A stretch of DNA of 64,000 nucleotides from Branchiostoma floridae (taxonomy: Eukaryota; Chordata; Leptocardii; Amphioxiformes; Branchiostomatidae), in contig NC_049988.1 in NCBI RefSeq assembly GCF_000003815.2, positions 2,787,898 through 2,851,897 of the forward strand. The letters run 5' to 3'. The notes beneath the pieces are model-generated. The model made no database searches and was not told the origin of the DNA. It saw nothing but the letters and a program-made list of their open reading frames with translations. Shown here piece after piece: positions 87 to 37,600 of the stretch (the first letter of the stretch is position 1; each line of letters starts with the position of its first letter). Position numbers and translations under genes: made by a program.

Positions 87-3000
87 GTGAGTAGGCCTGC
101 TGAAATTTATTGTACGGTTGTTGTGCATCTACGTGTGGTGTGCTGACGTCCTGTATTTTTGTGGCATTGTGATAATTTGTAATTTTTGTGCGATATTGTC
201 CGGAGGTGCGCTCATTTAATGACTTTAGTTTAAATTCGTTATTTATACGGATTAGCTATACGGATATATGCATACGAGCGGAAGGGGGCTTTCGTAACTC
301 GAACAGCTTTGTAATACATATACACAATACTGCGTGGGTATTGGTTTGCGATCCTCGTAATACCAAGGACTTTATTCTATTAAATGGTACACAAAGCTTG
401 GTCTGTTCAGCACCCAGCTTTTGGGGAAAGAGTATAATGGTAGTTGAACGCACACGTACTACCAGTGGACTTGGTCTACTCTCCTCGCAGAGGTTAGGCT
501 CCGGCTGTTTTTGACGTTTTTTTTAGGCGTCTTCGTCGGGCTTTCTATTTTGTACCGTGTTCTTTATGTTCTCACAGCTACAATGTCTTGAAGTGATTAG
601 GTTTATAATAGTTCCGTGTGGCGGCATAGGTTAGACCGAGAGACACCAAGAAAACGGTACAAAATAGAAAGCCCGATAAATACGCCTGAAAAGCGTCACT
701 GAAACAGCCGGAGCCTAACCTCTGCTTGGAGAGTAGACTAGGCCCCTGCTGTAGTGATTTGCTCAAAGCTGTGTGGTAACATACACTCTCATAAGCCATT
801 ATACCGCCAGCTAAAGAAACGTTGTTATAGAGGCCCTTCTCAAGATTGTCTTCAACACCTAAATATCTGAATTGTATTACATTTAAGATATCTAACATTC
901 GGTGTTCAAGACAATCTTGGGAAGACCTCTTTACTAACGCTTTTTAGGTGGCGGTATAATGACACCTGGTGGAATTATGGGTTACAAGGGCTATAGAAAC
1001 GGATATGTTTTTTTTAATCTAGGCATCATAGTGAGTTACCTGGGCAAATCTTCTTTCTAAACAAAAAAGACAGGTGAATCTCTAATGTCTCTATACAATC
1101 AGGTGGGGCTAAAGGTGGGTATTGTTTACCTAGTAACAAAGCAATGATGTAAGGATGGACCGATATCACGATTGTTCTTTGTGTCCACTATAGCGGACTT
1201 TATTACTCAATTGTTATGACGTTTCATGTCTATGTATTAGGGTTGGGTTTTTCTTATTGGACAGGTGCGGAAAAACCGGACCTGAAAAAAATCGGATGTT
1301 GGACCTTTTGGAAAATGAACAGGTTATATGATCAGGCATTCACACGTTTTGGGGGCTTACCGGTCAAGGAAAATAACAAGAGTGAAGTAGAGTAGAGTCT
1401 ATAGTCATTTCTACGAAGTTTTACCGTCAATCGTACAGAGGCAGTTAGCCTAGTAGGATTTTAAAACGCCAGTGGGAGTCGAATACTCCACAAAACAGAT
1501 TTCTTGTAGTGAAATAGACCGTTGTTGTGAGTATCGTCCATTCACAAGTTTTCAGGTCCAGGTTCAGGTCCGGACCTGGACCTGAACCGAACCTGGACCC
1601 GAATTTTCTGTACCGGTACCCACCCGACTATGTATGCTACCACAAGGAGGAACTGCGTTGATTTTGCTAGCGAAATACTAAACCTGAAATCCGTACAAGC
1701 CAGGAATGCGATGTATCGAATGGCATATTCCCACGGCGTTTGTAACTGTGTTTTGCTATAGATTAATATAAGCCAAGTATCGTGAGTAAAAAAGGCCCCA
1801 AATTAAATCCCCTGGGAATATAGAAATCCCTATGGCACTAGCTAATGATCTCAGAGTATATCGTTTCATTGTCGTTGTTCTACATCAATATTTCTGCAAC
1901 ACTGGTACTTTTTATGGTAAAGTTGTTTTCTTTTCCTTAATTCTTGCCCGTGAGTTAATTGCAGGTAACACAAGAGATTCAAACAGTGTAAAAACAATAT
2001 CACAAGTGTCTACTCTAGTCTAAAGTTAGTAAAAGCTAACTCTAGATACAGGGTTATTGGGTTCGACTCCTTTGTAACGGTTATGTTTTGACGGTTCAGT
2101 TCCGACCGATAGTATACGTAGATCTACATAAGGAGATGAACCGTTAAGAAAATAAGAAATACAATACTAAGATAATTCCAGTGTTGCAAAAACAGACACT
2201 AAACACCGAGAACAAGCCAAATCCTAACATCTGCTTGGAGTTTGAAAATCCCACAGTCTATTGAATGAATCTGTTGGTTACGTTACCAACGGAGATGGTA
2301 TTATTATTTGCTAAGGTGTGTGCTCCCGTATTGGATCGGTAGACCGATTGAAAAGCGTATAGTGTGTCTAGTGTAGTGCCGTATTTGTCTGTGCGGCCTT
2401 TTAAACACGGGACCGTACGTTAATGATAGCGGATGGGGTTGTTAAGGCGACTGATCCAGTCTCAAAGTACTAGTAGACATGTCAGCTGGATGAAAAAAAA
2501 AGAGGAATTTGGCCCAATAAGTTGCCATGGGATTTCGGTCAGTCTTTTGCAGTCTATCCAGCTGGCCGGTCAGTTCACTCCTAGGTCAATGAACTCCTGC
2601 TTGGCTTTTATCCCTAACTTGGCCAAAGTCGACCCCTATTTACTATTCAGCCAGGCCGGAGCCTGGGTATAGAGACTAAACTGATCTAGGCTGACCCTAG
2701 CAAAATCTGCCGACCCTAGCCTTTTTCGGGGGATTGTTTGCCCTCGTATTAAAATTTTCCCGTTATGCGTTTCTGACCTCTATGGTGTCACATCGGGGCA
2801 ACGATCTTTGTACCTTGTACGCTCATCTGACGCAGAATAGCCTAAACATAGCCTGACTAAAATAGCGCTCCTAGCGGCCGGCCCTATTATACAGTTGCCG
2901 TGGAGGGGGTCATTAACCCCAGTCAGCGAGGGATTGTTTTCTACGTAGTACCCAAGGTCACTTGGTTCAAAATCAGTGTAAGAATTCATTGAATCATAAA

Positions 3001-6000
3001 ACGAGTGAATTATCAATTTGAAATCATAAGAGAAGGGGAGCCAGACACGTCATAACACCGTTATGACAATGTCGAAATTACATAGTTGATTTATAAGGGG
3101 GTCCATATTAAAAGGAAAGCGTACCATCTGAAAGACTTAGGGAAACGTCGATCAAAACACCAAACATCTGCTTGGAGATTTTCGCTCGCACGCACGCTCG
3201 CACGATATTCGGGCATTTCCGTTCCTTGTCGAATTTCGGTTCAATTAACAATCGGATATTTCCGCGTATGGTCGGATTTCTGATCGGTGCACATTCGGTC
3301 ATTTCCGTGCCGTGTCGGTATGCATTCGGACATCTCCGTGCCGAGTCGAATTTCGGAACACATATTCGGCTATTTCCGGAGCGTTTCCTAACCATATAAG
3401 GCGTTATTCGGGTATCATCGGCTAGAAGACTCATCTGCATCATCCACCAGGGAATTTTTGGCGGCAGGAAGACGAACTCGTGAGGTGAGAAAGTTTTCTG
3501 TCTTAAAATGTCGTCAAATATGTAAAGTTTATTGTGAATCCTTCGGACAGGATAAAACAGACATTCTAAGACACAATTTGGTGTATAGTTTGTTTGGTTT
3601 TGTGGCATTTTTTTTGCTCAGTATTCGCAAAAATTTAGAGAGTGTGTGAGAATTTTAGTTGACACAGGAGAACGAGGTGGTATGGAAAATTCCGTACTTT
3701 GTCGTCTTTAATAGAGGCGAAAATGTGTACATGTATTTTATATGTGTTTAATATCGCGAGGGCCGTACAGATGGTTTGCTGAGGGTTGAATCTGAGTGGG
3801 AATAACTTTAAAGATACAAAATGAAGGGGTTTTTGAGGGGGTTAGGCTATTCTCCNNNNNNNNNNNNNNNNNNNNNNNNNNNNNNNNNNNNNNNNNNNNN
3901 NNNNNNNNNNNNNNNNNNNNNNNNNNNNNNNNNNNNNNNNNNNNNNNNNNNNNNNAGTTTATGGGATGACATCCCGGGTCTAGAGTGACCAAAAAAATGC
4001 CCATAAAATTCAATCCATTGCAGGTTTGGTTTGTCACATGTTTTGACTGTAAGAGCAAGGGCACTGTGCCCCCATGCCTTCAGACCATGTGCCCCCTTAT
4101 CCTAGAAAGCAGAGGTATTGAGTGGTAAGCATAAAATTTTGATTGAGTAACCTGCATCATAGACCCTGGGCAATGCAGATGGAGTTTTTTTAATAGGGGG
4201 TGGGAGGCGCTCTCTTTCTCGGAAAGGGGATAGCCGCATCAACTAGTATGCTACGAAGTACAGGCTTTTGGGGAAATATAAAAGAAAAATATAAAAGTAT
4301 AGCAATAGGTGAAATATTGGGAGCAAATACTAAAGGGAAAACTTATAATTTGCATCGTATTTTCAGTAGTTTTTTTCAGTAGTTTCACTCTTTTATAGTA
4401 GTATGGTCAAGTCTGATTCCAAATCTGAGCCATTCTGTGTCCTTCTTGGGCATCAGCTGTAGGATCTTGAACTATGACCAAGACCACAATGTACATTCCA
4501 CTTCTCATGCACACTGAAATATGCAAGATCGCTTTTACCAAACACTTAATGATATAATTGTGCCGATATGAATTATCACCTTAGGCCATGTTGATTTGAT
4601 TATATGGATGACATCCTCTGCGAATCCAAAAACTGCAAGCGTGCAAATAGAATAAAAATTCACCAAAAAATGTTGTCCTCATTATCATTATGAAGTCAAA
4701 GTGGTCAGGAAAGTTGAATAAATGACTGAACACACAGAATATACTATACGGAACAATTGGATTCTTCATTTTTGTTCTTTCACATCTTCTTTGACCTTTT
4801 GATGGTCTATGGCATTATTATACGTTTTCCAGTATTTACATTTGCAACCCACGGCATGTATTTGCTTATTTTGTGCGGTTTAGAGTATGGTTGAAAATTG
4901 ATGTGTGAGCGGATGTCATCCATATAATCAAATCAACATGGCCTAACGGTCAGTTAAGTATTGCTGTCTGACCCACGTGTTTCAGCACAGCAGTTTCTGT
5001 ATGTACAGTTTTGCCCAGAGGGGGTAAGTCTGCTATCTCTGATCACCTTGTTTTTGTTGTCATTGCAGGTGTCTTACTCTTAACTGTTGGTATGGCATCG
5101 AGTGGCAAAAGTTCAGGTGACCACAAAAGAGAAGTAAAAGGGGCTACTAGCATGAAAACCTACAGGTGTGAGGAGTGTAGCAAGCAGTTCAGTTGTCTGA
5201 GTCAACTGAAGAGGCACAGGCAGACTCACACCGGGGAGAAACCCTACAGGTGTGAGGAGTGTAGCAGGCAGTTCAGTCAGCTGGGTGATATGAAGAGGCA
5301 CAAGCAGACTCACACCGGGGAGAAACCCTACAGGTGTGAGGAGTGTAGCAGGCAGTTCAGTAGATTGGCTAATCTGAAAACTCACATGCGGACTCACACA
5401 GGGGAGAAACCATACAGGTGTGAGGAGTGTAGCAAACAGTTCAGTCAGCTGCATGATCTGAAGAGGCACATTCGGACTCACACGGGGGAGAAACCTTACA
5501 GTTGTGAGGAGTGCAACAAGCAGTTCAGTGACCTCGGTACTCTGAAGAGCCACATGCTTACTCACACCGGGGAGAAACCCTACAGATGTGAGGAGTGTAG
5601 CAAACAGTTCAGTCAGCTGGGTGAGCTAAAGAGGCACATCCGGACTCACACAGGGGAGAAACCCTACAGGTGTGAGTTGTGCAGCAGTCAGTTCAGTACC
5701 CCGAGTAATCTAAAGAGACACAAGCAGTCTCACACAAGGGAGAAACAATAAAGGTGTGAGGAGTGTAACAGGCAGTTCAGTAGGCTGAGTAATCTAAAGA
5801 GACACAGGCAGACACTGGGTCAGAAACACTACAGACATGAGAAATGTTTAGTGGGCTGGATAACTAGAAGTCTCTCATGGTTTTAGTGAACAACAAATGC
5901 GGACTCGTAGGTAAGATCTCTGGAATGGATGATGGGTGATTTCGTGAGCAAGAGTTTTGTTGTTGTTTTTTTACCATTTTTTGACCATTCCTTTAGTTGG

Positions 6001-15000: not shown

Positions 15001-18000
15001 TTTTTCTAGAAAAACCCTGATAGTGATAATTGTTGTTGACTCCCTGCAGGTTTAGATGACATGTTCCACCACGTGAGTCCGGGCCTGGGAGCCTTCAGTG
15101 TGTTTGTTGGGCTAACTGGAACCTCACAGGAGCTGGGCTTGAAGGCTCACAATGCTTGGATGTTTCCAGGTAAATTCTGCTTACATTAAATATAATGTAT
15201 TTGCTAATGATTAATATATATATGCCTCCTGGCGTCCGAGAACGATATTGTTAGAGTGCTGTCATGCTCTGATGCTGTCTCCACAAGCACTTTCTGGAGT
15301 AACTACTGTAAGGTCGTGCACAGACCACGTGCACGATGAGACGCAATGTGAGTCTTGTATTTTTTATTTTAAACAGTAGATTATTGTTCTTTCTTTTAAA
15401 TGTACTGTCAATTGTCCGTCCATATGGGCCATAGTGCCTGATAATAAACAGAACACAACAATATAGCAAAGTAACATTGACTCTCATATTTCCACTGGAT
15501 GCCATACTGTAAATGCAACATTAGAAGATATCAATTTGGGTAAATGTGAGTTTGTAGCTTTCATCATTATGCAACATAGCTTCATTGCAGTGGTATGTAC
15601 CAAAGTGCTGTATTTTCTCATAGAAAAAATAATATTAGGGGCAATGAAACCTGATGATGTCATCCGCATGACACAAAAAAATCAGATCTATGAATATTCA
15701 TTACGGTTCCATTCTTTCTTAATTCAATAATGAGAAAACAATGGAAGGTTAAAAATGCCAATTTATCCAGGTGAAATACCTTAATGTAGACTGAAAAGTT
15801 GAAAATCCATAGACAAAAGTTAGTCTTTTTATTTTACCTGCCTACTCTACATGTACTTACTGTAATTCCTGATTTTTTCAATGTTCTTTTATGTTCACAG
15901 TTTTCACGGTGACGACTGTAACATGAACTTATCATAACCGACAACAAATAAATCACTGACCTTTTTTACACGTACCTGCTGCCACTGCAAACATTTAGTT
16001 CCGAGAACAAGTTCAATTTTCTCAGACCGTTACGGTTTAGTACCAAGAAGACAATTTGTAAGTAAATTTTCTCACAACATCCAAGAACGACAGTAATATA
16101 TTGCTACATGTATGGCTTTATGGTTGTACATTGTCCCTACCACAGGAAATGACCATGACAAGTTGATAGAAGACTACTCCAGACTGACGGTACAGGAGGC
16201 TTGTGAGGAGGGAACCAAAACTCCTGTTCTCTTTGTCTCCTTCCCATCTGCAAAGGACCCCACATGGAACGCACGCTATCCTGGTAGGTATTGCCATGTT
16301 CATTACTAGTATATATACTGTAATTCCTGATTTTTTTTTCAATTCAATTTTATGTTCACGGTTTTCACGGTGATGACCGTAACCTTATATCACCGATAAC
16401 AAATAATTCGTCTTGGTGACGATGACAAATAATTCGTTCACGGTGAACATTTAGTTCCGAGAACAAGTTAAATTTTCTCAGACCGTGAAAGTTTGGTACC
16501 GGGAAAACAAAGTTAATTACAGTATATGTATGACATCCTCTGGGAACCCCAATTGAAAACTAATGCCAGCAAATTCAAAAACAAAGAAGTTTTGCCCCAA
16601 AAATTGTCTTCATTATGAAATTTACTGGTCAGAAGGTTAAGCTAATGACCAAGAGTATGGTATACCAAACAATAGATTCTTTATTTTTGTTCATTCACAT
16701 CTTCCTCTTTTACATTTTTACTTTGAGACATTCGCATTATTCAACATTAGTTATCATCATCTGGTGTATTTTGCCAGCCAGTAGGTACCCAAAGTATGAG
16801 TAATGAGGCTTTTTAACGTGGTCGAGGCACCTCCTCGAGCACGGGACCCCCGTTTTACGTCCCTCCCGGAAGACGATTTCGTGGAAAACTTCGTGAGGCT
16901 ACAGCAATCCGGACGTCCTTGGTTGGTCCCCCATCCAAGCACTATCCGGACCACGCGTTGCTTAACTTCCGAGATCGAGGGATCGGGTGTACCAACGCGC
17001 CACACGGCCGTAGCTATTGTATTGGGTTTTTTTTTAGCAATCTAAGGCATATATTTGCTCCAGTTACACCTGCAGCTACTTTGTACAATATGTTTTTTAT
17101 TTTTTTGGAAACGGACGAAAATTGACAAACACGTGATACATGTTTTACATATAGCCAATCACATCATTCTCTCTCTTGTGTTGAAATATTCCTTTTCCCC
17201 CAGGAAAGTCGACTTGTATCATCATCTCCTTCACGCCTTACGAGTGGTTTTCTGAGTGGCAGGAAGGGAGAGTGAAGCACCGTGGCGAGGAGTACGAAAG
17301 CATCAAGAACAGACTCGCCCAGAAGATGTGGAGACAGGTCTGCCAACAGTACCCTCAGCTGCAGGGCAAGGTGAGCAGGCAGTGGGGACATCTAGTGATG
17401 TTTGGTGGTACTGCAGCTGCCATTACAAGCTATCAAATGAGGTTCTGTGTGCTATTTGTAGGCAACCTCAGCTTGAAAGCTGAAAGATAGGTTGCCCATG
17501 AACATTTCAGATTGGTGAAGGTTTAAAACCCTAGACTGAAGCCCTGTAAAGGTTTTTAACTGTTTAACATTGTTTATTAACATTGAGTTTAAAGATTTTT
17601 CATGGTAATAAAATGCCTGTAGAAAGAATCCTCTGTATACAGCTATTAACTGTTATCAGATACATTTGTAACATCATGCAATTAGGTAAAATTTAGATGT
17701 TGAGAATCAAATTAAGGACTCTTTTCTATCAATTTTATTGATAATGATTAGCTATCTTTATTGTGCAACAATTGTACAAGGTACAAAGTATAGCATCTAC
17801 TAGTACATAAGTACAGTTCTATAAGGCTAATCTACTTGATACAAGGATACATAGTATGGGATGAAAATGGTCTATGGAGGGATTTCTAGCGTCTAGACAT
17901 TCTTTAATATATTTTCCTATGTATACAGTACCATACAGAGGTTGTCACATGTCATAGTATATCAAAGTTTAAATTTACTATCTAAGTCCATTTTCTCCCT

Positions 18001-25684: not shown

Positions 25685-28600
25685 CTGTGAAGATACAAAA
25701 AAAGAAGCTTGAGTACAACAAAATATGGCAATCAGTCGGCAAATCTACATCTAAATACATATGATCATTCATTTTTTGGCATACCTTTTCTGAAACTTCT
25801 CTGACGGACTGAACTGAACTTGACACTTGAATGTCAAGACACGAAAAAAGAATATATTGTTTGGTATACCAGGTTCTGTAAGTTCATTTTTTTTCCGCAC
25901 ACCCAACTCAGTTTTGCAGTGCCCAGTGGATGTCATGACTATGGCGTAGACATGAAATCGTACCTTTGCTGTACTACTGTCCGGCGGGCCATGGCCGTCC
26001 ATCTGTGCCATGCCCGCTGGCCCGTGACCATCGCTCGGCCCCATCCCCTGCTGTAACATCCCCGCTACCATCTGTCTGTGCATCAGTTGGTACACCAGCT
26101 CCTGGGGCATCATGGGACATAGAAATGCATTATGGGTCACAGAAATGCATTATGGGACACAGAGTGCATTATGGGACATAGAAATGCATTATGGGTCACA
26201 GACATACATTAGGGGTCACAGAGATGTATCATGGGACACAGAAATGCATTCTGGGACATAGAAATGCATTATGGGTCACAGACATACATTAGGGGTCACA
26301 GAGATGTATCATGGGACACAGAAATGCATTATGGGACACAGAAATGCATGATGTGACACACGTGCATTATGGGACATGTGAAACTTCAACAGCAGTCAGA
26401 CTCAGAAAAGGTTTTTTTTCCAGAATGAAAATTTGAACTGTTCCTCACCTGTCTTGCTTTCTGTCCAGGTGGCATAAAGAATAAGACTCAACATGAATGC
26501 ACGGTAATTCAAGTACACTGCAGCAATGCTAATCCATTCAGGGTTCTAGCCAGGATTTCATTTCAGCGTAGTGGAAATGGCATGGTAGCGAAGCAACCAA
26601 TCAGGAGATTGGTGTGGAAGGGGGGTTTGGCCCCTCCACGGTGAGATTTTGACAAATTGTAGAGTTAAAAGTTGGGACTCTGTGAACATCACATGTACAG
26701 TAATTTGAAGGATTTTTTGGTCAGTTTTGAATGGCAATATCATCATTTTTCATTGTTCAGACTTTGAACATTGTTGAACAAGCAAATGACAGCAAAGCAC
26801 CACTACACTAAAAATTAGCATAGTGGCCCTTATTTTAGCGTAGTGGTCACAAATTGTAGCGTAGCGGCCCATCACACTAAAATGCACAAGCTAGAACCCT
26901 GCCTGACCATCAATTCTAATGTCTTTAGATGAGTGTGATTCAATTTGATTTGATATGGTATGGACTACTTGGGAAAATCAATGGGACGAAAATACACACA
27001 GACACTGTAAACAAATCTATGTTTGCAGGGATTTAGTTTTACAGTTAAGACAAAATACTTTTCTACTCCCTAACTCGTATCCCATCCCCACCCCCCAGGT
27101 CCCCACCCCCCAGGTCCCCACCCCCTGCCCTTGCCTTAGGCCTAGGAAAAAAAATGTTGTGTTTCCTGTTTCCCTACCTTCCCTAGAAAAACCTGCCGAC
27201 CCTAGACTTTTTTTTGGGTGGGCAGTGGAGTCACATAGCTTCCAGTTAGAATTTTTATTCAGCCTGCTTCCTATTGAAGTAAAAACAGTCTGCTTGTCCT
27301 ATCTATTGTGCACAAAATCAAAGTTTGACATCGAAAGACAAATGTCCTCATGCATTTCAGTTTCCTTTGTTCAACTGTATTGTAATATGTATCACTAGAT
27401 TTTTGGCTAGCCTAAAAAAAATTACAAAAAAAAAAGATATCCCCTACCTACCGACCCTAATTTTTTCAGGACTGAAACAGGAAACACAACATTTTTTTCC
27501 TAGGCCTTACCGGACTGAGCTGTTGTTGCTGCTGTAGTAGTTGGCTCATCTGTTGTTGCTGGTAGAACAGAGCCTGTCTCTGCTGGTCCGACAACATCTG
27601 TAGTGTCCCCATCTCCCTAAACATGTGCAACACACAATTTACATGTCAGGAATTTGTGCTGCACAAGAAAAACTTTTCCTTGCCTTGTATTTTTGTGTAT
27701 TTTCAATCACAGAAATTAACAACATGGGGTCATAAATAATGAGTGGAATGGGAAAAAATTACATCTAGATATGCAGACAAACCTTAGCTGTAATACCACC
27801 TGTTTATGACAGGTGGTATCAGTGAGACATTGTGCCTATGAAAACATCCTAACAGCCTTATAGCCTTCCTTTTCTAGCTCGTTTGCTTTCTTCAGACTAT
27901 TACAGCACCATCCACATTTAAGGTCTGGTATATACTTTATGTTTTGTATCAGTTCATGGATCAAAGATTTCTCAGAAACAGTATCATTCTGTCTAAGAGC
28001 CGTGTGACTTAGACTTCAACACATGTACATGTAAAACCCTTTCTTAACATTTTAGGCCAATATTCAGCAATGAAAACAACCAGGGCTTTTAACCAGTGCT
28101 CTAGTTAGAGTGTAATACCAGGCGAGTTATTTCTACCACTTGTATGGAATAACTACAAAACACTAGAATACAACATTTGATGTACAATGTAGCTAAGGAA
28201 CCAGTAAGTGACTGCCATATGCATGTTGTTGTTTAACTTTAACCAGTAGTTAGCTAGCACAGGTGATTTTTTTCCTAATGTGATAACACAGTGAAATCTA
28301 TCTTAAATTATAGCTCTTGCAGCCCCGAACAAAATGCCGTTTTCGGATTTCAAATCGGATGAACTTAAGTCTAGAAATTAAATTTTGAAGTAATTAATTT
28401 GGGTATTTTTGTGGAAAACCTTAATCATTAGTTCAATGGGGCCCAAATGGCACCGGAGGGACCTGTAATTAGAGCAAATCAATACACTACACACACACTA
28501 TATGCATCATTAGCATGATTTATTTTCTTAACACCAACAGACATTCAAGTTGATGCAACTGTCTAACCAAATCCAGCAAGTAGACAGTACACTTAGTCTA

Positions 28601-31600
28601 TAATTAGTAAATGATTATGTTAATTATTGAAATTAGTATGTCTGCATACTAATTAGGTTAATATCACATACTATATTCAGGTATCCTCTACACATTCAGG
28701 CTACATTTCTCTCTCAGGTTACCTCAGACATCTGTCACTACATGATCAGCAAAGTGTCAGTTGCAAATAAATTCTTATGTAATGACTGATTTGCATATTT
28801 GCATATTAATTAGACAAAACCATCAAATTGGATAGACATCATCTACATACACACTTTCTTTATGCCCACCTCTAAACGGAGTAATGGAACTGGCAGCTGT
28901 CACAATATAGCTAACAAATAGATGATCTTAAGTATTCTAATTAGTATATGATTAGTGTTTTAGATTATGTTAATTATTGAAATTAGTATGTCTGCATACT
29001 AATTAGGTTAATATCACATACTATATTCAGGTATCCTCTACACATTCAGGCTACATTTCTCTCTCAGGTTACCTCAGACATCTGTCACTACATGATCAGC
29101 AAAGTGTCAGTTGCAAATAAATTCTTATGTAATGACTGATTTGCATATTTGCATATTAATTAGACAAAACCATCAAATTGGATAGACATCATCTACATAC
29201 ACACTTTCTTTATGCCCACCTCTAAACGGAGTAATGGAACTGGCAGCTGTCACAATATAGCTAACAAATAGATGATCTTAAGTATTCTAATTAGTATATG
29301 ATTAGTGTTTTAGATAATATAAATAATCCAATTTCAGCATTCTAATCACTGCAGCTTTCATAAATTACAGAAGATACATTTAAAAAATACATATATTATA
29401 CAATTGTCAGCTGACACAGCATGGGTGACCAGCAAGTTCAAGTTATCATACCAATTCTTGTTGTATAATCATTTAACATATTTGCATATTAATTAGACCA
29501 ATAATGCATATAATAAATAATAATCCAATCAATTCATGGCTTTGAGAAAAAAATGCACTTATACTATGTTTTCAACTGTTTTTGACTTAATTACTTCAAG
29601 ATTACTTATTTAACTTTTTGTCATCCACTTCATAAATAAATAATTAACATCAATTACTTTTTTGCATATTAATTACATCATTTTTACAAGTCATACCTTT
29701 TTTCTGCAGAAATATGTGAATACTATTGTATCTAAAATATCATATCAAATATTAACAAATTCCTACTGTCTCTCTTTGCTTGTCTCGCTTCTTCACTTTT
29801 GCTTTATCAGTTCAAGTCTTCTGTTCAAAGCCATATTACAACAAATATAATCAAACAAATTCCTAAAGTCTCTCTCTTTGCTTGTCTCGCTTCTTCTTCA
29901 GTTTTGCTTTTTCTGCCTGTATCAGTTCTAGTCGTCTGTCCGTAGCCATGTACTTTGTACCCTGTTCAACTTCCTGATCTGAGTCCTCATCTTCATCCTC
30001 CTCATTGTTGTTATTGCATCTTAAAGTGTTCATACCTATCAGCTCAAGCAAGTTTTCCTTTAGTTCTGACATTGAAAACTTTTTCACCGACCCATTCACA
30101 GTCATCTGTTGCTGAACCAAGTATCTTTTGTCTGTTGGTAGAGGGTCCTCCAGAACTACTTTGTGAAATCTGAGCTGTGCAAGGATCTTCTCTTTCTTCT
30201 TTGAATCAGTTGCACACTCACAGAGTCTCTGCTCAACCTCCTCTGGAGTCTTCCATTCACCGCCACCTTGCCTTACTGCTTCACAAATCTTGGATTTTTC
30301 CTGGGATACCCTTCTTATCTTTCTTTCCTTCTCATCTTGTTTCTGCCTCAGCAGTTCGAGGCGGTGGCTCAGAATTTCCTGTTCTCGTTCTTTCTGCTTC
30401 TTGATGCATCCTGGAGCAGCTTTTCGAGCTGTCTCTAATGCACGTTCTTTGTCATCTTCAGACAGTTTTCCCAGCCAGTCTACTGTGTGGTTTGTAGAGA
30501 GTAGAAGCAGTGATTCGATGTGTAAGGTCTTTGCAGATGGTTTCAGCTGGTGTAACCTATTTCGGTACCCAATGCTTCTTTCACATGTGACATTTGTTGT
30601 GGGAACATGTTTAGATTTCTGTTTCAGGTTTTCATCAGGATTATCATACATTCCTCCAGGTAAGTAGTCGGTGAGCTGTTTTTCTATCAGAATCACCCAG
30701 GACGAGAAGATCAGCTCCAGGGCACTGATGGTGAGAGCATCCAGCTCAGCATCCTCAGAATCTTTAAGAAGGGCATGGCACACATCATCCTCATCAACCA
30801 CCTCCCGGCCGGGAAATATGGTTTTATTGTCAGGCACAAGTAGTTCTGATGCGTCCTCTGATAGTCTAAGAAATTCCGCTCTCATTGTGAGAGACTGTCT
30901 GTTCAGATCGAGGATGCTGGTAGCAGCTAAGATTTCTTGCCACATTGGCGTGGTCACTCTCTTCTCCAGGATACCTAGCGCCCTGCATCCAGCGATAGCA
31001 ACTTTGTTGGATAAGTGCTGCTGCAGACAAGAGTGGGACATACTTAGGGTACCACCACCTTTCCAGATTTCTAAGAACTCCCTCATGTCCTCCAAGTGAA
31101 AGAAGAAAGCCGCACCATTCACAAATTGGATGTTGCATCTATTCCCGATTAATTTGGAAAACTGGCACTTTCTACCTGGCTCCTTCCCATACAGGAAAGC
31201 CTGGAAAGCCGCCGCTTGCCCCGTTCTTTCATCGCACTGTTTTTGAAACGTGCGACAAGCTGCATACAGTGCATCCTCAGTGACAGCCCTTCCATTTTTG
31301 GTTGGCATGCCTTTCTTTTCAATGGCGCACACATCGAAACATTTTAATGCATCAAGTGCAACAGAAGCCATATTGATAAGGACGTGCATATAACAATAAA
31401 AGTTATTGACTTTCTCTACTGAGCTTGACGTGTCCTTGATTATCTCCCCCCTCCACTCTTCAAAAGCACTGTTAAATGCTTTCATTACTGAACCTCTGTC
31501 CGACATCGTTGATGTTATCATTGATAACAGATTGGTCAGTTCCATTTCTGGGTCAGTACTGTCAAATTTTGCCAGAATTTCCGCTACCTCCTTCAGCGTC

Positions 31601-34600
31601 TGCTTGTTGCCTTCGAACACAGCCTGTGCATTCTCCTCGGCCATCTCGTATAGTCCTAGTGACAGGGTTCCTGATGGAGTGGTCACACTTGTAGTGTTGA
31701 ATTTCTTTTTCTCCTGTGTTGACCCGTCATTGTGAAGTGTTGCGTGACCCTCCAGCATGGCTTTGCCTGCCTGTATCACTGAGAGCATTCGTCCTTCAAC
31801 AGCCAAAGTTCTGATCAAAGTCTCAGAAGGTAAATGTCCTGTGATGTTCATCTTTGCCAGTTTCTCCAAAACTGTTCTTATCACAGAACTAACATGCTTG
31901 ACACTCACATTTTTGGACAGCAGATCTATCACAACTTCCCTTATCTGGTTTGTATATCCCTTGTCATGTTTGGTTTCAAGTGTTTTCATTGCTTTCACTG
32001 TATCTTCTAACATGGTGTTTTCTTCCTCTAGCTCACGCTTCTCTTGCTCCAGTTTGTCTATCTTTTCTGTGTTAGCACACACAATAGCTTGTGGACTTTC
32101 CATTTTCAGCTTTGCTTTCAGTGTTGAGGCTTTCTTCTGTAGGTGGACCTTTTCTGTAGTCAGCTTTTTGTTGGTGACTTCTAAGTCCCTAATCCTTGCC
32201 ATCATCTCTGCTATGAGTGTATCTTGATGTTTCAGTTTTTCTTCACAGATTGAGATCTTCTTTTTTTTTGACTTCTCCCTTTTGTTGAAGTTCCTTACAT
32301 TCCACTTGCTCAGTTTTTCTGTTGCGTCTTGTAACTTTTTTGATTGAGAGTCAAAAGCATTCTCTATTTCCTTGATGTACTTTTCCAGCTCCCCATTGTT
32401 GTTGTTCATCAGTTTCATTTTTTCTTCTGTGTCCTCAGTGATCTTGTCGCATTCTTGCACAGCAGCTGTATATTCACTGATCAAAGTCTCCAGCTCTGTT
32501 TGCACACACTGCATATTGTTCTTCCATTCTTCTGCACTACCCAGTTTCTTCTTCAAATGTTTGTTGGCCATTCTTGCTTCTTCCAGATGCTTTGCAAGTT
32601 TCTTCTTTCTCGGTGTCCATGGAGCTCGAGACTGTGGAGTTTGGTTTTGCTTTGGGGAGTTGAAAGTCTGATTTAACAAAGATTTCAGTTCCTTTTTATC
32701 CTTCGACAATTTCTTCCTTTTCCCTGCTAGGCGTGAAATACTGCTCCAGAGTACTTTAGTTTCCACCCTGCTGTCAATGGATGTGAATGTTTCCTTGAGC
32801 AGTTCCATCTTCTCTCTCACCTTGAGTCGTTTGTGTTGTCCACAGAACTGTAGGATATCTCCATTTGTGGCCATGGTGCCTATGTAAAATCACCAAAAAT
32901 AATTAGCAAGATATAATATACAAGATAATAAAACAAAGAAAACATCTTCAGGCAACACTGAATGATAGTACAAAAATTCACAACTGAACTATTCCTTTAC
33001 CTAAATAGATGTACATGATTGTGAAGAAAGTGTTTTAATTCTTTTATATTGTTGTGAAATTGAATAACAATTTTCAACAACAGAGAAAAAAGAAACTTGC
33101 AAATCATTGTCTCACCTGTCCAATTCCTTCCCTCTGTGTCACTTGTATGATTTGAAGAAGTACAGAGAAGAAGAAGATAGAAGAGAAGTCCACTACTAGG
33201 CACTAGTCACAACAGGTTCTCTGGCATCATAACTGAGAAGAAATGTAAAGTTATAATTAAATGGCTTACCAAAAGATATCAGACAGGATTCTGAAAACTA
33301 AATCCCATCTAGCCTCATAGTACGTACGCACTTAACTTAATTCTCTATGCAAGAAACGTGTGAGGAGCCAGTGAATAACACTGCGTTCGCCACGCCCCCC
33401 TCCCACGCCCCGCGGCGCGGCTTCCCGCCAAAGAACAGCACTGAAAATAGCGATTTCCGCCGTGTATATACCAAAGTAAATGTTATAAATCTGGTATCAA
33501 AATAAAGCTAAGAACATGTTCTATCGTATTTCCGGTGCCGCAAATAGATAATTTAATTCTATCGGGGGAAAAATCGTGGTCAAAGTTTTTAAAATAGTCA
33601 TAAATAGACTTACCTTGGACGTAGAAATTTGCGGCACACACCAGAATACTCCCCACAGTCTCTATAATGCATTCATGAAGTTTCTATGGACCATAATCCT
33701 CGGTATATCCGGCGGAAACGGGGTCAAAGTGTGGAACGCATTTTTGCGTTCGGCGGAAATGGTGCCCGCCGCGGGCGTAGCTCGCCAGCCGGGTGGCCCT
33801 GCCCGTTAATCACGCTCTAACTAAACATCGGTAACTTGTTTTTAAAAGAAATTTAGTACACATAGAGATAAAATATTGATTGAAAAGCACAAGTAATTTG
33901 GTGATTGTGAGTATTAAATTTGTTTTTCTAGAATTTTTTTAGTTGGCCGATCGCGGCCCGTAACGCGTGGGAGTCATTTTCCGCGCGGCATATAGGGGGC
34001 AATTGCGCTCGCTACAGTAGTGCATTAAGCCAGTGTCACATCATCAAACCATAACAACCATTGGCCAGAAAGTTGCTAGATTTCAAAATAGTCTGAGAAT
34101 CGAGGGTACATTTTGCCTAAAATCTACAACATTAGACAGTACAGTACCCTAAAAACTCTGGGTGATCCCTAACAATCACAAAGTGGTTGAGAGGACACCA
34201 GCTGCTAAAATTTCAAACTGTGCGGAAAATCACTAGATACAAACAACATGCAGATCTGGCATCATTCTCTTATCAATCATTTTTGAACTTTTTAGAAGAG
34301 TTTTCTCACCTCCCTGCCATCATAACTGGCATCCCTGCACCCGGCATCATCTCATGTCCATGACCCTTCATGACCTGGTGATGACCTGGGTTGTCCTGTG
34401 AACTCTGACCTTTGACATGACCGTGACCCTTGGCTATCTCACTGATAACAGAGGGGTGTGGGTTCGACTCCTGGGCTGGGAGCTGACCTAGACCAGAGCC
34501 GAGGCCGGATTTCTTGTTGTGGTTTGGGTTGGATTCGGGGCTGTTGTCGGACACGTGGTTCAACATCGAAGCATCGCGTGCCGCCATGTTTGGCGAGATG

Positions 34601-37600
34601 TTCTTGGGTTGGTGGTTGGGGGTCGCCCTGTTGGCGCGGGATTGCTGGGGGGTGTTGGATCTCTGGGAGGAGCCGGGACTTTTGGACTTCCTCCCGGCGG
34701 AGAGCTGGTTAATGTCCTGCATAGAGAGGCTGAGCTCGGCGTGGCTCCGCTGAGGACTGGGTCCGGGGTTGGACGCGGGGGAGCGCCCCTGTACCGGGGA
34801 CGGGTGGGGCTCCCCCACCCCACCCGCGGGGAGTTGGTTCTGCAGGGGCGTGCTCGGTAACGGACTGTTCCCCGTGTTGCGGTGAGGGTTCCCGTTCAGT
34901 GCGATCCCCTGCAGGGGGTTGTGTCCGGGGGAGTTGTGCGGAGTGCCCTGCGCGTTGAGCGGGACGGACAGCCGCGCTGTGACGGCCAGCAGGTGGTCGC
35001 GCCGTGCCAGCAGCGTGTGAACGTGCTCCTCCAACCGCTGGTTCTCCTGGCGAAGCTGGTGTAGGCACGACAGCAGGGTGGCAACTTGCCGAACAGGTGG
35101 GGAGACAAAGGGACCGCAAAATTAGATAACTACATGTCTCACGTCGAAAAATAGTTACTCAAGCAGCTGGATATGGTTTTGGAAACAGTCAGACGTTTCA
35201 ACTACTATCCAGTAGTTTTCGTCAGTGTCACTGAATCTTGTTGGATGATAGTTAGGATAAAAGTGTTCTCCAACAACATCTCTTCAGTGTCACTGACAAA
35301 AACTACTGGATAGTAGAAGCTGAAAAGTCTGACCGTTTCCAAAACCATATCCAGTTGATTGAGTAACTAATTTTTGGCGTATCTTATTACCTAGATGTCT
35401 AACCTACATCCGACGTAGCTTCATGTCTTCTCTGAGTTAGGCCAAGTTGATTGGATTATATGGTCGACTCCCTTTAGGGGAGACTAAACTGTTAAGAATT
35501 TTTCCCCAGTAATACATGTAACCCAATGGGGAAGTGGAGAAAACAAATGTGTCATTATCTCAAGAATTAAAACTTGAAGGTAGCAGAACACAGTTTTCGG
35601 CCTACGGGGATTTCTATAGTTAAGGGCCTCAAGGTGACTAGCTTCGACGCATTGAAAAATATACTAGGGTGCACTTTGGGAATACCAAAATCCGATATGT
35701 TTGAGTTGAAGGTACAAGCCACAAAATATTAAAAAACAAAAAAAATCCTGTCGGCGTATCGTCTTCTCACGCCCTCTTTGAAATGCCCCTCTGCGGAGGT
35801 CATAGAACTGCAGCCGGCTCATGCTAGAAAGGCAGTTGCATAATGGGGCGCATTTATACACGAAATAGAAAACTTTCACAATCCAAACCATGCAGTCTCA
35901 GAGTCAACACCTTCCGTGACCACGTAGCACAGGCTATATCTGGCTGCCCCTCAAATAAGGCTTTTTACCTCTCCTTCAACAAGTTTATCCGTACTATTTT
36001 ATGTACCCGCGTCATACACCCCGGGGTTTGCCCATTAATACTGTGTTCTGCTACCTTGAAAGCCATACAAACTTACCCTCAAATGATAGCCTACTCTCTC
36101 CAGGCTCATCAAATGCATTTGCAAGAATTTCTATACAGCTAGTCTTTAGAAGGCTTTAAAAGATTTTGCTAGACATGTAAGCCAGTGAGAATGGTACATA
36201 CTGTCAAAGTGCGCGGCCTGTTCCATCAGGAACTGGGACCCTTCGTTCCACTGTCGCTCCAACAGTTGTTCTATACTGGTCGGGAAAGGTTGCCTGGAAT
36301 GCATCATAAGTAGGGGTGGGTACCGGTACAGAAAATTCAGGTCCAGGTCCGGTTCAGGTCCAAAGGATTAGGTCCAGGTCCGGACCTGAACCTGGACCTG
36401 ATTCAGTATGACTCATACCATTGGTCCATTTCACTACAAAGAAATCTGTTTGGTGGAGTATTAGACTTACACTGGCATCTTAAATTCCTACAATGCTAAC
36501 TGCACCTGTACGATTGACTGTAAAACCTGGTAGAAATGACTATAAACTCTACTCTACTTCACTTTTGTTATTTTCTTCCACCTGCAAGCACCAAAACGTG
36601 TGAATGCCTGATCAAATAATGTGTCAATTTTCTAATCGGTCCAACATCCGGTTCACCTAATTTTTTCAGGTCCGGTTTTTCTGGACCGGTCCAATAAGAA
36701 AAACTGGTTTTGTACCGGTACGCTGTACCGATACCCAGCCCTAATCATAAGCATGCAATAAAAATTAAACCTTTAAATATAACTTTTAAGTGTAGCTTCA
36801 AGCATTCCATATACGTTTTCCATATTCCAGATATCTGAATGCATGCATCAAGGAACTTCCAAGCATCTTGACTCCAAACTTAAATGCTTCCGTTAGATAT
36901 GTGGCTAAGAAATGCAGCCTGAAATGTTCACACAAAGCAAAAGTTGACCTAGGTTTTTCTCCCCAACGTTGCGTGTGTCTCATAAACTTACATGGAATGG
37001 TTTGGTCCTTCCGAAAACCTTGGTGACATCGGACCCCGCGACGAGCCGCCCGACGGGTGTCTGGGTCCGTTGAGCGCTGTAACACCAGGGGTGGACAGGG
37101 GTGGGGGGTCGACTGCAGATGCCCCGTCCAAATCTGTCATGGGGTAGTGAGAAAACTTTCAGCCCAGGACTTAGACTTTATCTAAAAAAAAAGTTTGATT
37201 TAATACCAACAGAGTTTTTAATACCAAAAGAGTTTTTACCAACAGGGATCTAACAATTTTTTTGGGGTCATACAGATTTGGTGAAGTTCTCTCTGAGCTA
37301 TCATAGAAAAATTATATCATAAATGGATCCGTGTGTATGTTTGTGCTTAAGTTACTTCATGCAGTTTTGGCTCCGACCTGAAAGTATTGCCAAAAACATG
37401 ACTTCATAATGGGTCAATGTGTTTGTGTTTCTGGTTAGCACTTTAGTCACTTCATCAAGTTCATGCAGCTTTCATAAGGTACTAACTGGTTCCATATGTG
37501 TGTGTGTGTTTGTTTGTGTGTGTCTTTGTGCTGAAGGTGCTAAATGGTTCCGCCACAGAGCTTTTGCCAAAAACAGTATTTTTTGGTGTCCAATAGCTAC

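Follow-up and report, generated by a model that had tools for sequence, protein, structure and literature searches.

Is an intact, transposase-like open reading frame (ORF) inside an intron of a chromatin gene a resident gene of its host, or a transposon copy that landed there recently? The question is raised by a 64-kb window of the lancelet Branchiostoma floridae (64,000 nt of contig NC_049988.1, positions 2,787,898 to 2,851,897), which contains a 1003-codon ORF on the minus strand; coordinates below are those of the window. A preliminary description, made from the letters of the window, had proposed a domesticated or host-resident transposase-derived gene nested on the same strand in an intron of MLLT10. 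The analysis led to a similar answer, which is held tentatively. The likeliest reading, to which we give almost an even chance, is a protein-coding gene of transposase descent that resides in an AF10 intron and has its own promoter; the main rival reading is that a copy of some mobile family inserted there recently.

The frame was recovered exactly as it had been described. It runs from ATG to TAG with zero internal stops, and its start context is GCACCATGG. In 30 simulated windows of 64 kb each (order-3 Markov), the longest stop-to-stop frame reached 257 codons, and the mean of the 30 maxima was 180. Because the ORF lies far above this simulated maximum, its intactness was counted in favor of a protein-coding gene. 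The codon positions also differ in base composition, as they do in coding sequence.

The whole ORF lies within one intron of an AF10/MLLT10-type gene, and both are on the same strand (Table 1). Exon-like frames on the minus strand carry the PHD region of AF10, and three joined peptide pieces from these frames matched the PDB chain Protein AF-10 with an E-value of 2.6e-48. The enclosing phase-2 intron joins ...GMPVMMAGR to EMGTLQ.... The claim of a same-strand gene nested in an MLLT10 intron thus holds. The name of the host gene is right in kind, and the gene may belong to either the AF10 or the AF17 lineage.

Upstream of the ORF, a CpG-rich block was found that is flanked by the CpG-poor ORF and intron. 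The observed/expected ratio of CpG is 1.39 in the block, but only 0.37 in the ORF and 0.16 in the stretch between the two. When 630 windows of 500 bases were compared, the second-highest peak fell in the block; the first is near 2800-3800. According to the accessible text of PMC2957685, CpG scores of the lancelet genome are bimodal, and in invertebrates low scores are taken to mark methylated regions and high scores unmethylated ones. Read in this way, the contrast makes the block look like an unmethylated promoter. The first-ranking region (2801-3800, ratio up to 1.56) adjoins an assembly gap at 3856-3955 and contains a 166-codon minus-strand ORF without a Pfam match at E 0.1.

The splice-like signals between the block and the ORF were ranked with a hand-typed textbook donor matrix, which was applied to all 3961 GT sites on the minus strand. 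Two of the top-ranked donors would close candidate leader exons; for comparison, the donors inferred for the host gene at 27510 and 34309 take ranks 5 and 7. The second candidate leader exon holds a short upstream frame. Its acceptor at 33233 reads ...tttacatttcttctcag (pyrimidine fraction 0.72), and the acceptor at 32880, in front of the coding exon, reads ...gattttacatag (pyrimidine fraction 0.67, which is within the top 13% of AG sites). A TATA-like site is present at 33048, where an alternative start is possible. The splice acceptor, leader exon and promoter candidate claimed earlier are therefore borne out as sequence signals. The proposed 33116/32879 junction fared less evenly, as its donor is strong but its acceptor just moderate. 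Taken together, these sequence signals support a putative separate transcription unit with a candidate promoter and spliced leader of its own.

The coiled-coil front claimed for the protein is supported, as residues 43-302 matched an SMC coiled-coil family of NCBIfam (20.4 bits at an E-value of 9e-5; the family cut-off is 567). The core contains the motifs HNDGST, SDRGS, YCYMHVL, GNRCN and TNVTCERS, with D383, D459, C494-H497, R579 and E765; the two Asp residues are at the positions given in the preliminary description. For comparison, residue numbers of hAT transposases were taken as printed in the accessible parts of PMC6027215 and PMC4763223, and spacings were computed from them. Those numbers are D180, D248, H268 in CxxH, R318, W319 and E572 for Hermes, and D301, D367, C401, H404, R463, W/F464 and E719 for Ac. 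Of the five key positions, four are present together with the CxxH motif, all in hAT order, whereas the aromatic position is occupied by Cys580. In Kat1, a Trp-to-Ala mutant at the matching site was reported to retain cleavage and to be defective in strand transfer (PMC4763223).

In the mechanism that we propose, the nested gene would be transcribed on the host strand from its own CpG-rich promoter. Splicing would join one or two untranslated leader exons to a single large coding exon, and the RNA would end near the AATAAA at 28524. In the predicted protein, a long coiled coil would serve oligomerisation and would precede a putative DDE-type, RNase-H-like core with D383, D459, CxxH, R579 and E765 as the hAT-like series. 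Such a protein would probably bind DNA as an oligomer. Whether it might still cut DNA is uncertain because the hAT Arg-aromatic pair reads Arg-Cys, and we infer that the ORF has been retained by selection.

The loose residue pattern D, D, CxxH, R, ER was counted in favor of transposase descent, as it occurs once in the protein, but when residues 310-830 were shuffled it also appeared in 60 of 3000 cases, so that the pattern alone is no more than suggestive; a stricter pattern, composed after the sequence had been seen, occurred in 0 of 3000 shuffles. Several observations weigh against a resident gene of transposase descent. The residues that follow the Glu in hAT transposases (aromatic at +3, Ser at +4 and Arg at +14, as given in the accessible text of PMC6027215) are Ile, Gly and Pro here. 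The profile search that the preliminary description had proposed found no Pfam family at cut-off, neither with the whole protein nor with any of 8 fragments, and the proposed structure prediction gave no usable fold: the single-sequence model of residues 300-830 was meaningless, with a mean pLDDT of 35.5. A sequence search of the PDB returned one coiled-coil match for the whole protein (E 0.013) and three matches for the core, with E-values of at least 1. Further points concern the transcription unit and its age. The donor-like site inside the ORF ranks close behind the leader donors, and 4 of the 3774 sites on the plus strand score at least 11.3, so such scores occur elsewhere. The CpG loss of the ORF may merely reflect its location in a methylated gene, and the duplication of its tail may predate the arrival at the AF10 intron and would then give no date for the residence. 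As an aside, the donor at 32820 (codons 18-19) and the acceptor at 32880 would bound a 59-nt exon.

Additional searches of the protein were also negative. No hAT-C match was found with Pfam up to E 10 in residues 720-830 or 736-806, although the HMMER filters may drop weak matches. A BED zinc finger was recognised with Pfam neither in the whole protein nor when residues 1-108 were searched separately, and a coiled coil is present instead; an N-terminal BED finger is common among hAT transposases, but not universal. NCBIfam (whole protein) and PHROGs (residues 360-830) yielded no family match above cut-off. Sub-threshold Pfam matches to Phage_Gp17 (E 0.00095), Ig_SibA (E 0.0012) and DUF7018 (E 0.0033) were judged to be chance or compositional. 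Relatives were sought by pattern scans with subsequent tblastn checks, which confirmed 0 of 6, 0 of 159, 0 of 279 and 0 of 24 matches in four scans of IMG/VR and 0 of 88 and 0 of 188 in two scans of GTDB contigs, and residues 300-830 had no match among phages and plasmids. Because these viral, prokaryotic, phage and plasmid collections hold no animal genomes, the absence of relatives there means little. A keyword search of the open-access literature found no paper on this gene, which is no proof of absence. In summary, the transposase-derived identity claimed earlier is plausible from the order of the residues and the distances between them. It was confirmed neither by a profile nor by a fold or a relative, and several hAT-specific residues are missing.

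The same results bear on a second explanation, namely that the ORF is an ordinary coiled-coil protein gene or an old retrogene and that the DDE-like residues are coincidental. The lack of a transposase profile match, the recurrence of the loose pattern in shuffled sequences and the single coding exon would all be in agreement with it. However, CxxH and all but one of the five key residues occur in hAT order, at D-D and CxxH distances that are compared with those of Ac below, which speaks against coincidence, and the missing poly-A tract after the AATAAA speaks against a recent retrocopy. A recent retrocopy with a poly-A tail was ruled out on the basis of this 3' flank. We regard the explanation as unlikely.

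More weight has to be given to the possibility that a recent copy of a multicopy, possibly active transposon landed in the AF10 intron. The CpG block, the leader and the 3' tail would then be parts of the element, and its ends would be short, diverged or lost. In favor of it, many uncharacterised invertebrate proteins that are apparently repeated, among them proteins of cnidarians and sea urchins, may have the same motif order. Inverted repeats were sought at ungapped thresholds of 11/12, 13/15, 16/20 and 19/25. None was convincing, as all pairs found have flanking duplications of at most 2 bp, but shorter or gapped ends may escape these thresholds. Exact direct repeats between the outer flanks were counted for 9-12 bp, a range that leaves out 8-mers, the length of hAT target duplications; four 9-mers and nothing longer were found. 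The preliminary description, which had reported neither terminal inverted repeats nor a target duplication, is in agreement with these results. The long intact frame without visible transposon ends, as seen here, is a feature expected of a domesticated transposase gene. In addition, no second copy of the ORF was found in the window, the next-best tblastn match beyond the ORF having an E-value of 1.1, which also argues against a multicopy element.

The age of the ORF was approached by simulated neutral drift. At 0.5% substitution, 155 of 300 frames remained open, about half, so a young insertion needs no selection to be intact. At 5%, a mean of 6.4 stops was observed and 1 of 300 frames was open, and at 10% 0 of 300 frames were intact. 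Next to the ORF lies a non-coding duplicate of its last part that has diverged (Table 1). If this duplicate arose in place and was free to drift, the ORF has survived beyond a divergence at which drift should break the frame. The CpG depletion of the ORF likewise suggests time under methylation, but the source copy may already have been depleted. On the other hand, the 3' flank contains an exact 350-bp tandem duplication that would fit a young insertion, as it is a recent change of the flank, possibly polymorphic, or else an assembly artefact. Taken together, we consider a recent transposon copy a real possibility, though the less probable of the two main readings. The decision between a mobile copy and a host-adopted gene hinges on copy number and orthology.

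As the nested ORF and its host share a strand, the preliminary description had considered read-through or regulatory coupling. Coupling is possible for this reason, but a junction between the host exon and the acceptor of the ORF (34310/32879) is out of frame. It would cut AF10 off at ...MMAGR and append 34 residues, and thus would yield a truncated AF10 with a novel tail instead of an AF10-transposase fusion. A fusion protein through this junction was therefore excluded. Truncation could be the main effect of the insert if it acted as a gene trap, in which the acceptor at 32880 and the poly-A signal at 28524 end AF10 early in some tissues and the ORF is untranslated in that RNA. The shared strand and the out-of-frame junction fit this explanation, and so does the composition: among 232 sense windows of 3 kb, those over the ORF have the highest contents of A (36%) and of purines (61%). 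In the ORF itself, GAAGAA occurs 14 times, whereas codon-order shuffles contain it 6.2 times on average and reached 14 in 6 of 2000 cases. Precedents have been described. In mammals, SAFB proteins keep long A-biased same-strand inserts with an acceptor and a poly-A signal intronic, as described in the accessible text of PMC10901741, and nested genes cause exonization and cryptic polyadenylation, according to that of PMC3192792. However, a K/E-rich coiled coil by itself may account for the bias towards A and GAAGAA, the acceptor is just moderate, and SAFB action, reported from other animals, is a candidate mechanism by analogy. We regard a pure gene trap as the least probable of the explanations considered. 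A combined version, which we hold to be very unlikely, would be a host-adopted nested gene from a transposase-derived family outside Pfam, in which a coiled coil replaces the BED finger and Cys the aromatic residue after Arg. The A-rich, same-strand body and the acceptor of this gene would also tune AF10, a chromatin reader, between full-length and truncated forms.

Table 1. Coordinates of the nested ORF, its candidate signals and its surroundings in the 64-kb window
Feature	Position	Strand	Remarks
Enclosing AF10/MLLT10-type intron	27617..34309	-	phase 2; donor 34309, acceptor 27617; 6.7 kb
CpG-rich block, candidate promoter	33350..34020	-	GC 45%, CpG observed/expected 1.39
Candidate last base of leader exon 1	33614..33614	-	followed by donor AAG/GTAAGT at 33613, rank 2/3961
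Candidate leader exon 2	33116..33232	-	117 nt; acceptor ttctcag, donor CAG/GTGAGA at 33115, rank 3/3961
First bases of coding exon	32875..32879	-	preceded by acceptor ttttacatag
1003-codon ORF	29863..32874	-	coiled-coil front ~residues 43-302, DDE-like core ~310-830, K/E-rich tail
Donor-like site AAG/GTGAGA within ORF, after codon 18	32819..32820	-	rank 4/3961
D383, candidate first catalytic Asp (HNDGST)	31726..31728	-	putative role, by comparison with accessible text of PMC6027215
D459, candidate second catalytic Asp (SDRGS)	31498..31500	-	76 residues past D383; putative role
C494-Y-M-H497, CxxH motif	31384..31395	-	35 residues past D459; role of CxxH as in accessible text of PMC4763223
R579-C580 (GNRCN), place of hAT Arg-aromatic pair	31135..31140	-	Cys for aromatic; comparison with accessible text of PMC6027215
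E765, candidate catalytic Glu (CERS in TNVTCERS)	30580..30582	-	306 residues past D459; putative role
Diverged non-coding duplicate of last part of ORF (29854-29949)	29754..29834	-	73/81 aligned bases identical, three gaps
Exact 350-bp tandem duplication, 3' flank of ORF	28613..29315	.	350/350 identical
AATAAA	28519..28524	-	sole AATAAA or ATTAAA in 27618-29862

Three further features of the window were recorded. A 5S rRNA match at 16896-17015 on the minus strand covers the whole model (55.5 bits) and is probably located downstream of the AF10 exons. At 35141-35380, the AF10 locus contains a long imperfect inverted repeat with 67-nt arms that are 87% complementary, perhaps a small palindromic element. 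On the plus strand, a 246-codon ORF at 5011-5751 encodes seven tandem C2H2 zinc-finger stretches.

Should the nested gene prove to be resident and expressed, the known transposase-derived genes would gain a member that the searched Pfam models miss, and the locus would test, in a natural setting, how a host copes with a long coding insert on the sense strand of a chromatin gene. Should it be one copy among many, it would point to a transposon family that awaits definition.

Compared with the hAT transposases Hermes, Ac and Kat1, the nested protein has its candidate residues in the same order, namely D, D, CxxH, R, a long insertion and E. On the residue numbers of PMC6027215 and PMC4763223, the distance between the two Asp residues is 76 here, 68 in Hermes and 66 in Ac; the CxxH follows the second Asp after 35 residues here and after 34 in Ac; and the distance from the second Asp to the Glu is 306 here and 324 in Hermes. 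In contrast to hAT transposases, a coiled coil is found in place of a recognised BED finger, Cys580 follows R579 where hAT proteins have an aromatic residue (R318-W319 in Hermes, R463-W/F464 in Ac; PMC6027215), Ile, Gly and Pro occupy the three conserved places after the Glu, the protein has no hAT-C profile match, and inverted repeats were not found. With domesticated hAT genes, i.e. the ZBED genes and Kat1, it shares a transposase-like protein without visible transposon ends, but a BED finger was not found; the accessible text of PMC10027918 reports a ZBED gene for B. belcheri and not for B. floridae. The inserts restrained by SAFB (L1, Tigger and nested genes) are alike in having a long A-biased sense ORF with an acceptor and a poly-A signal in a host intron; they were reported for human, mouse and fly in the accessible text of PMC10901741. 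PGBD5 belongs to another transposase superfamily and, unlike the nested gene, has introns, but it is a precedent, being an old piggyBac-derived gene that is conserved from cephalochordates to humans (PMC3902484, accessible text).

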